Translations under genes and position numbers: made by a program
In this document: positions 52,501 through 54,912 of the stretch, in pieces
How the letters are laid out: every line of letters starts with the position of its first letter
Position numbering within the stretch: position 1 is the stretch's first letter
The notes under the pieces: generated by a model
The model's input: the letters and a program-made list of their open reading frames with translations, nothing else
Databases searched by the model: none
Told to the model about the DNA's origin: nothing
NCBI RefSeq assembly: GCF_964204645.1
Contig: NC_134034.1
Span: 12,281,962-12,345,961 of the forward strand
DNA from: Tubulanus polymorphus
Taxonomy: Eukaryota > Nemertea > Palaeonemertea > Tubulaniformes > Tubulanidae
Reading direction: 5' to 3'
Length of the DNA stretch: 64,000 nucleotides

Positions 52501-54912
52501 TCTCGGACCTGTCTGTTGTTTGTAAAGGACCCGCCTGTTTTTGAAGACAGCTTTCGTTTCAGGGATTGTGACATATTATGGGACCCTTCTGTTTTTCAAA
52601 GGGACCTGGCTTGTTAATTTCTTATTGAAAACACTGGAAGGAAATTCATAACCCCTCTCAATCTGTGCATCCAATATACGGGGGAACTGTTCCCCCTCAC
52701 AGCACTCTTTCAATTAATACTCTCTCCATGCCCCCCCCCCCCTCTGCATTTCATTGTGTACGGTTGGCCTCGATAGGTCCATCCTTGAAGGGAGAAATGC
52801 TATAGTAAAAAGATAACTCAGTACCTCTCTAAAACTGCTCTGCACTGTCAGGGCGGTATTGTACAGGATATTACAAAAATTGGTCATCAATTACCGGTAA
52901 AATATCTCTCGATCAGATATAGATGCATTTCATTGTGTACGGTTGGCTTCAATAGGTCTATCCTTGAAGGGAGAAATGCTATAGCAAAATAACTCAACAA
53001 TTTTCTTAACTGGTCTGTTCTGTACTGTCAGACCGGTATTTTGTGGAGATTACAAAGACATATTGTTCAAATCTTCAGATATCTTGAGAACTGTGCCATC
53101 AAATTCTTCTCCGCATTTCATTGTGTACGGTTGGCCTCAATAGGTCTATCCTTGAAGGGAGAAATGCTAAATAAAATGACCCTGTATTTTTCTAAAACTG
53201 CTCTGCTCTGTCAGTCCGGTTTTGTACAGGTTTTTACAACAGAAAAAAATTGGTTCATTCAAATTTTGAAATATCTCTCGATCAGATATAGATGCATTTC
53301 ATTGTGTACGGTTGGCCTCGATAGGTCTATCCTTGAAGGGAGAAATGCTATAGCAACATTACTCTGCAATTTTCTAAGCTGGTCTGTTCTGTACTGTCAG
53401 ACTGTTATTTTGCGGAGATAACAAAAATAAAGGAATCAAAGGCAATAAATCTTTATTCGGCAATGGCCCAGATTAGACGGTTGCTACGACTCCTTGATCC
53501 CTTGAAAACTTTAATAAGTGCCAAAAACTACTCTAAAAGTTGCATAACAAATATACTACGCCTAAATAGGTGCAGTTAGCTCCAGGATTTGTTGCCCAAT
53601 TGAATTAAGCAGTCATCGAATTCGTAAGGATATGAATTTGCTGCTTACAAAACTACTGAATTACCGAGATAAACAGTACCGATTTAGGCGTATATTGTAA
53701 TTGGGATACAGGAAAGTGAAGTAGATGCTTTCTCATAATTTTCTCCTTGAAAACTTGCATGATCTGACGGTTAAACGATTTACTGCGTATTTGTGATGGT
53801 AAATAACGACGTCGTCGGTTGTTCGCTATTTGTAGGATCATCGATCGCTGCAGGATATCATCGCTATTCTCGGTATGGACGAACTGTCCGAGGAGGATAA
53901 ACTGACGGTCGCTCGCGCTCGTAAGATCCAACGATTCTTGTCGCAGCCGTTCCAGGTCGCCGAGGTGTTCACCGGTTCGCCCGGTAAACTGGTACCGCTC
54001 GCCGATACTATCAAGGGATTCAAGATGATCCTCAGCGGTAAGTGAACGATCTCAATTTCGCTACGGGAATCGAGCTTACGGTTGAACTTTACCGATAAGG
54101 GTTCATTCATTTATTACGTACGCATAAGGGGAGGGGGAGGGGGAGGGGAGGGCAATTGCGTACTGTAATGCTTAATTTATACGAAGAAATGGCCGATTTT
54201 ACGTACAGAGGGGGAGGGGGGGTTGAAAAATTCAAATTTTATGCGTACGTGATTTATGAATGATCCCTAATTACAGAACTGGATCCTGTAGGGGGGGGGC
54301 GTGTTGAAAAGTTTTGCGACTTCTCTTATGTTCGTTTCGTGATTAAAATCGCACACGCGACAATAAGGAGAATATCCAGTTATGTGTGGTGTACGTACAG
54401 CCCCTTGTTGGTTCGTGTTCCCTTTGAAAATTCCTTTGATCCGGGTTCTTACCGATCAGGAAATTCCGGAATATTAAATTCAGGGAATATTTGGTCAGGT
54501 TGGGGAATATTCTATTTCCTGACCATGTAAAAAAAGGTTTTCAGGGCTCTTGAATCTGCTTCGGGTTCATCAAACCGCGAGTGCAGGGGTCCGAATCAAT
54601 CGGCCATTTCTCTCGATTCAGGATTTCAGTGCCTTAGATTTCTAAGTACAGCCTATTGGCTCGCACTGTATCCCTCGGAAACAACATCATGTAGAAATAT
54701 TAAAATTTAAAAAAAAATGTATCGATTATCATTTATATTGTATGTACGGTTTACGAAAAATAAATATCTATCTATCCCGAAAAAGCATTGACGGTTCTTC
54801 ATTTTCCTTTTCAGGAGAACTAGACCACTTGCCAGAGGTCGCCTTCTACATGATCGGACCAATCGAAGAAGCCGTAGCCAAGGCCGAACGTCTAGCCGAA
54901 GAAGCCAATTAG
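46594..54912 (+). CDS. ATP5F1B: ATP synthase F1 subunit beta, mitochondrial, 10 exons, about 531 aa
   Basis: The catalytic subunit of mitochondrial F1-ATPase. Exons: 46594-46729, 47335-47517, 48112-48286, 49007-49128, 49629-49813, 50075-50233, 51142-51264, 52017-52229, 53836-54037, 54815-54912 (stop TAG), phases consistent. Exon 1 gives a presequence: [16 protein letters not shown] is Arg-rich and amphipathic. The start could be the in-frame ATG at 46594 or the better-looking one at 46633 (518 aa); the vertebrate protein is 529 aa. Then [25 protein letters not shown] (P-loop, about 206-216), [29 protein letters not shown] and DELSEED (447-453). All key residues are present. Introns host a probable snoRNA cluster (intron 8), a possible C/D snoRNA and a palindromic ribozyme-like element (intron 6), and four MITEs (introns 2, 3, 4 and 9). 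Confidence 0.97.
46827..47043 (+). promoter_or_regulatory. Two YY1-like motifs in ATP synthase beta intron 1
   Basis: AAGATGGCCGCC occurs at 46827-46838 and again at 47032-47043, about 100 and 300 bases after exon 1. YY1 sites just downstream of the start are common in animal housekeeping genes. The role here is inferred. Confidence 0.45.
47831..47995. mobile_element. MITE of the GGGATCATTCATTTAT family, copy 1 (ATP synthase beta intron 2)
   Basis: It starts GGGATCATTCATTTATTATG + TACGCATAA and ends with the inverted TGCGTACGTTATAAATGAATGACCC. It contains C-rich tracts and GCATTACAGTACGCAATTGC. An inverted second copy lies at 54099-54267 in intron 9 of the same gene. Confidence 0.85.
48347..48631 (-). 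mobile_element. TTAA-flanked MITE (piggyBac-like), copy 3 (ATP synthase beta intron 3)
   Basis: 285 bp between TTAA at 48343-48346 and 48632-48635, with CCCTTTCAGTGC termini. Same orientation as the 8922 copy. Confidence 0.9.
49335..49495 (+). mobile_element. GGTTTCATAGA-family MITE, copy 3 (ATP synthase beta intron 4)
   Basis: GGGCTCGGTTTCATAGACTG start and ATCTATGAAACCCAGCCC end; nearly identical to 5905-6060 through the interior. Confidence 0.8.
50547..50853. mobile_element. Large palindromic element with hammerhead-ribozyme-like cores (ATP synthase beta intron 6)
   Basis: The arms 50547-50672 and 50733-50853 are near-perfect reverse complements (CCCACTATCTACAGATT against AATCTGTAGATAGTGGG, through CTAAAATATA and GATCTC). 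The loop is about 60 bases. On the plus strand CTGACGA (50737), stem GATCTC/GAGATC and GAAAC + five bases + GTC follow the hammerhead order; the complement of the left arm gives the same with GTA. Such cores are known from Penelope-like elements. A supporting stem I is not evident, so activity is doubtful. Confidence 0.7.
50977..51048 (+). ncRNA. Candidate C/D-box snoRNA (ATP synthase beta intron 6)
   Basis: GTGATGA (C box, 50980-50986) and CTGA (D box, 51042-51045) are about 70 nt apart, with an internal CTGA and a degenerate TGATGCG as possible D' and C' boxes. The terminal stem is only two base pairs. Position is about 95 bases upstream of the exon 7 acceptor, within the usual range. In vertebrates the ATP synthase beta gene hosts C/D snoRNAs (SNORD59A/B), which raises the prior, but I cannot show homology. 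Confidence 0.35.
52267..52320. repeat. Perfect 24-bp hairpin after ATP synthase beta exon 8
   Basis: AATAATTGTATGCAAATAAATGAA and its exact reverse complement are separated by six bases, starting 38 bases after the exon 8 donor. Each arm contains the octamer ATGCAAAT. Function unknown. Confidence 0.85.
52746..52878 (+). ncRNA. H/ACA snoRNA-like unit 1 of 4 (ATP synthase beta intron 8)
   Basis: The 5' hairpin is closed by GCATTTC/GAAATGC with an inner GGCCT-CGAT-AGGTC stem-loop. A hinge ATAGTA fits the H box (ANANNA). The 3' hairpin has a 9-bp stem ACTGCTCTG/CAGGGCGGT. ACA (52873-52875) follows, three bases before the proposed end. Length 133 nt. Intronic location on the sense strand of a housekeeping host is typical of animal snoRNAs. 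Confidence 0.7.
52925..53057 (+). ncRNA. H/ACA snoRNA-like unit 2 of 4 (ATP synthase beta intron 8)
   Basis: Same 5' hairpin with one stem change that keeps pairing (GGCTT/AGGTC). Hinge ATAGCA. The 3' stem is ACTGGTCTG/CAGACCGGT: relative to unit 1, the C:G pair became G:C and the U:G pair became U:A, so pairing was kept. ACA at 53052-53054. 133 nt. Confidence 0.7.
53113..53241 (+). ncRNA. H/ACA snoRNA-like unit 3 of 4 (ATP synthase beta intron 8)
   Basis: The 5' hairpin is conserved (GCATTTC ... GAAATGC). Hinge AAATAA. The 3' stem ACTGCTCTG/CAGTCCGGT has two mismatches. ACA at 53236-53238. At 129 nt it is the most degenerate 3' half of the four. Confidence 0.6.
53294..53426 (+). ncRNA. H/ACA snoRNA-like unit 4 of 4 (ATP synthase beta intron 8)
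   Basis: The 5' hairpin is as in unit 1. Hinge ATAGCA. The 3' stem GGTCTG/CAGACT continues with wobble pairs. ACA at 53421-53423. 133 nt. Starts 181 bases after unit 3. Confidence 0.65.
54099..54267. mobile_element. MITE of the GGGATCATTCATTTAT family, copy 2, inverted (ATP synthase beta intron 9)
   Basis: GGGTTCATTCATTTATTACG start, CGTGATTTATGAATGATCCC end. The G-rich and C-rich tracts are exchanged relative to the 47831 copy, so orientation is opposite. Confidence 0.85.

Follow-up and report, generated by a model that had tools for sequence, protein, structure and literature searches.

Four tandem H/ACA snoRNA-like genes in an ATP synthase beta intron of Tubulanus polymorphus with a shared predicted guide for a conserved 18S rRNA pseudouridine

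The pseudouridine at position 1692 of human 18S rRNA, which is modified to 98% (PMC6182160), has been assigned to the H/ACA RNA SNORA70, or U70 (PMC9610020); another study names SNORA64 for U1692 and gives a SNORA70 primer that includes GTGTACG (PMC7760958). In Drosophila, snoH1 (alias snoRNA:Psi18S-1820; PMC12239590) guides 18S U1820 (PMC1821038). Tandem paralogues within one host gene have been described as DmSnR60 a-d in Drosophila and as cis-duplicated snoRNAs in chicken (PMC1821038, PMC2653536), and one snoRNA gene per intron is the rule in animal genomes (PMC1821038). In the nemertean Tubulanus polymorphus, a single intron of the ATP synthase beta gene contains all four of the units described here, each of approximately 130 nt. 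The window analyzed is a stretch of 64,000 nucleotides (NC_134034.1, positions 12,281,962 to 12,345,961 of the forward strand), and positions are numbered from its first nucleotide.

Translations of the exons on both sides of the intron fit the ATP synthase alpha/beta families, and the units follow one another at spacings of 179, 188, and 181 nt (Table 1). A preliminary description of this DNA had reported four tandem units, and its coordinates and quoted stems proved exact on re-reading. All four show the anatomy that it had ascribed to them: a 5' hairpin is joined by an ANANNA hinge to a further hairpin, after which come ACA and three more bases. The GCATTTC/GAAATGC stem that closes the 5' hairpin is invariant. 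In H/ACA RNAs, the target U faces the base of the upper stem at a distance of 14 to 16 nt from the following H or ACA box, and the rRNA is paired on either side of it. The corresponding distances here fall within that range: the 5' pocket is separated from the H box by 14 nt, and the 3' upper stem is separated from ACA by 14 to 15 nt. Unconstrained minimum-free-energy (MFE) folding returned the anticipated hairpin-hinge-hairpin-tail shape for units 2 to 4 but not for unit 1, which preferred another fold; its H/ACA fold, with the 5' stem imposed, lay 2.3 kcal/mol higher. MFE z-scores relative to shuffled sequences were weak (-0.9 to -2.1), and thus folding energy by itself proves little.

Table 1. 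Positions of the host intron, the H/ACA units, and associated elements within the window
Feature	Position	Strand	Details
Host intron, ATP synthase beta gene	52231..53835	+	GT...AG ends; adjoining exon translations match PF00006 and PF22919
H/ACA unit 1	52746..52878	+	133 nt to ACA+3; 5' hairpin 52746-52800; H box ATAGTA 52802-52807; ACA 52873-52875
H/ACA unit 2	52925..53057	+	5' hairpin 52925-52979; H box ATAGCA 52981-52986; ACA 53052-53054
H/ACA unit 3	53113..53241	+	5' hairpin 53113-53167; H box AAATAA 53169-53174; ACA 53236-53238
H/ACA unit 4	53294..53426	+	5' hairpin 53294-53348; H box ATAGCA 53350-53355; ACA 53421-53423
5' pocket left guide TGTGTA, unit 1	52755..52760	+	Pairs with UACACA of 18S; position common to all units
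5' pocket right guide AAGGG, unit 1	52788..52792	+	Pairs with CCCUU of 18S; first base 14 nt from H box; position common to all units
25-nt block AAATATCTCTCGATCAGATATAGAT, spacer preceding unit 2	52900..52924	+	Identical ahead of unit 4; holds a 6-bp hairpin
Second copy of 25-nt block AAATATCTCTCGATCAGATATAGAT, preceding unit 4	53269..53293	+	

Two further elements were seen in the vicinity. The preceding intron of the ATP synthase beta gene holds a C/D snoRNA-like element (positions 50980 to 51046) with GTGATGA, an internal CTGA, and a terminal CTGA; conserved 28S AAGGGGAATCC is complementary to the 10 to 11 nt that precede the internal CTGA, and the element gave weak, sub-threshold Rfam C/D hits to snoR60 and SNORD52. 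The downstream gene (positions 57454 to 59850, plus strand) has repeated, near-identical cysteine-rich exons that resemble granulin modules and appears progranulin-like from its ORFs.

Conservation among the copies is markedly uneven. The 55-nt 5' hairpin is 95 to 98% identical in all six between-copy comparisons, whereas the 3' half, from H to ACA, is 63 to 86% identical (units 1 and 3, 76%; units 2 and 4, 86%; remaining pairs, 63 to 70%). The spacers are at the level of shuffled background except for those of units 1 and 3, whose 71% identity is concentrated in the 25-nt block just ahead of units 2 and 4; outside that block, the remainder of the spacers preceding these two units shows background similarity. 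At the level of sequence, this pattern would be expected if the 5' hairpin were under purifying selection or subject to very local gene conversion. Uniform satellite-type decay does not fit it, conservation being confined to that hairpin. Since the 3' half of unit 1 is closest to that of unit 3, and the 3' half of unit 2 to that of unit 4, the array would have the history A-B-A'-B', in which A was first duplicated to A-B and A-B was then duplicated to A-B-A'-B'.

The 3' stem had been described as changing on both sides between units 1 and 2 while still pairing at all nine positions. All nine upper-stem pairs are indeed kept in these two units, but two are broken in unit 3 and one is broken in unit 4. 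One pair shows a two-sided change between units 1 and 2 (C-G to G-C), and the other change is one-sided (U-G to U-A). The lower stem of the 3' hairpin contributes a second compensatory change, from A-U to G-C, which distinguishes units 2 and 4, and several further one-sided changes in this hairpin preserve pairing. The compensatory evidence is real but small, because it comprises two pairs in four related sequences.

The upper-stem mismatches in units 3 and 4 would be expected if only one or two units were functional snoRNAs and the others, perhaps these two, were decaying tandem duplicates. The 3' halves, which differ by up to 37%, and the animal rule of one gene per intron (PMC1821038) point in the same direction. 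Decay should, however, reach the 5' hairpin too, yet this hairpin is nearly identical among the units while the spacers of the older duplicates have become unalignable, and none of the four has lost the H box, ACA, or any part of the 5' pocket. We regard decay of some of the units as possible, though on balance doubtful.

As stated in the preliminary description, the 5' guides are conserved: the 5' pocket (TGTGTA/AAGGG) is invariant in all four units. It forms 6 + 5 Watson-Crick pairs with 18S CCCUU-[U]-G-UACACA, a conserved 18S 3' sequence that is visible too in the Rfam eukaryotic SSU consensus, and the target U lies 14 nt from the H box. The 18S and 28S rRNAs of T. polymorphus itself were not found in the assembly, in which only divergent rRNA fragments (84 to 91% identity) were seen; eukaryotic sequences taken from one viral contig and from contaminants of MAGs served as stand-in rDNA. 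The IMG/VR viral contig (IMGVR_UViG_3300029287_000002) carries a terminal eukaryotic 18S rRNA fragment and is probably a chimeric assembly, and the presence of eukaryotic rDNA contigs in nine bacterial genome records (mostly MAGs, with one isolate, Planomonospora parontospora) looks like contamination.

Among all U's of each contig, the same 18S site was the best match for the 5' pocket in nine of nine eukaryotic rDNA contigs; these came from bacterial genome bins and were fetched by a pattern that includes the target site, so the result concerns the rank of the site and not its presence. With the pocket fixed, none of 300 shuffled rDNAs attained 11 Watson-Crick pairs. With free pocket boundaries, 11 of 300 attained 11 pairs, making the match only moderately significant on its own, and the neighboring register U1691 (7 + 4 pairs) tied with the U1692 register.

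The target U corresponds to U1692 of human 18S rRNA, a position computed from the 18S 3' sequence. Counted likewise from the 18S 3' end, Drosophila U1820 is very probably the same U. Our first idea, 18S U1625 (SNORA5), was dropped when the position was computed as U1692. The rRNA match sought for the 5' pocket was thus obtained at a known 18S pseudouridine site, and this coincidence lends the target independent weight. Because the 5' pocket is invariant and the target U corresponds to human Psi1692 and, probably, to fly U1820, the array would most likely constitute a four-copy guide for one conserved pseudouridine. The guide word GTGTACG is common to the units and the SNORA70 primer (PMC7760958).

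The 3' pockets differ, with an A type in units 1 and 3 and a B type in units 2 and 4. The earlier suggestion that the 3' guides diverge and so possibly have different targets was correct as to divergence but did not gain a target: neither the conserved 18S/28S sites nor the genome's own U2 was matched by the 3' pockets beyond shuffled controls, and comparison with human U1, U4, U5, and U6 sequences likewise gave nothing convincing. Divergence of the 3' pockets within one guide family toward separate targets would account for the two pocket types, but with no match to conserved rRNA or U2 beyond chance, it is unsupported and, in our judgment, improbable. For the same reason, the simplest reading is that the 3' hairpins are structural, and we consider this probable. 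Approximately 20 U2 snRNA genes, nearly all equal in score, form a tandem array at approximately 1.8-kb spacing (C7:13975223-14013011).

A search of the 268-Mb genome with the whole array, and another with the 5' hairpin alone at E values up to 10, found no copy beyond this intron; the preliminary description had named scattered satellite copies as grounds for rejecting its reading, and the array was the only place found. A genome-wide guide pattern gave 70 hits, compared to 86 for the reversed control, which is chance level, and none of 30 fetched hits combined lower and upper stems like the four units. The genome has a dyskerin gene, and no such guide was found in 9.9 kb around its exons. 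An Rfam scan of the units gave no family match, and the SNORA70 covariance model (RF00156) gave no match at E <= 10 genome-wide (a first look that scores few candidates) or in positions 52700 to 53450; the covariance-model comparison envisaged earlier thus linked the units to no Rfam family.

That the locus is simply a satellite or minisatellite in which hairpins arose by chance, as its tandem arrangement and modest folding z-scores might suggest, is very improbable given that there is no other copy in 268 Mb, that conservation is restricted to the 5' hairpin and not even across the repeat unit, and that the pocket meets a known pseudouridine at the correct spacing. The box spacing, the specific rRNA target at a known pseudouridine, the pair-preserving changes, and the uniqueness within the genome strongly support, as far as sequence can, the assignment of the units to box H/ACA RNA genes; the proposal of an H/ACA family guiding pseudouridylation was in this respect upheld.

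We are highly confident in the overall model, in which the intron would encode four H/ACA RNA genes with a shared 5' hairpin targeting the U1692 equivalent, the array would be the product of tandem duplication, and the 3' hairpins would probably be structural. Transcription of the host gene would include the intron, each unit would assemble with dyskerin and its partner proteins, and the approximately 130-nt RNAs would be trimmed from the intron. The shared 5' hairpin is predicted to hold 18S CCCUU-U-G-UACACA in its pocket, and dyskerin would then convert the U equivalent to human 18S U1692 into pseudouridine. Tandem duplication in the two steps outlined above would have built the array; selection or very local gene conversion would have kept the 5' guide, and the 3' hairpins would have drifted, with little retained beyond the ability to form a stem and the ACA tail.

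Given the one-per-intron rule in animals (PMC1821038), an intron that frees four snoRNAs would have to be cut internally or trimmed by another route, and the array raises the question of how such release occurs. The 25-nt block preceding units 2 and 4, with its 6-bp hairpin, is a possible candidate for a cleavage element. A more speculative proposal, which we consider unlikely, is that all four units are processed, with strong constraint on the 5' guide only, the 3' hairpins left free, and an internal cut made, perhaps at the 25-nt block. If this is true, the locus would offer a view of how one half of a two-pocket guide drifts and is possibly retargeted.

The array appears to be an unannotated guide locus, as judged by the lack of an Rfam match. 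Its predicted target is a highly conserved pseudouridine of the 3' region of 18S rRNA, and its four copies display what would be half-molecule selection in an H/ACA RNA. SNORA70, the vertebrate H/ACA RNA for 18S Psi1692, has the identical predicted target U and, in its published primer, the same guide word; it differs in that its Rfam model has no match in the T. polymorphus genome, where four copies instead lie in an ATP synthase beta intron. Drosophila snoH1, from an intron of mfl/Nop60B (dyskerin), is likewise an intronic H/ACA RNA and is likened to the units by target position, very probably the same U, but it is a single copy in the dyskerin gene. The comparison suggests that the host gene of the guide for one and the same site varies among animals, being dyskerin in the fly and ATP synthase beta here. 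DmSnR60 a-d and the chicken paralogues resemble the array in their cis-duplication, with guide regions kept and the rest diverging, but they occur as one gene per intron, whereas four lie in a single intron in T. polymorphus. This is thus a new H/ACA locus of a well-known RNA class, modest in its novelty but uncommon in its arrangement of four copies in one animal intron.
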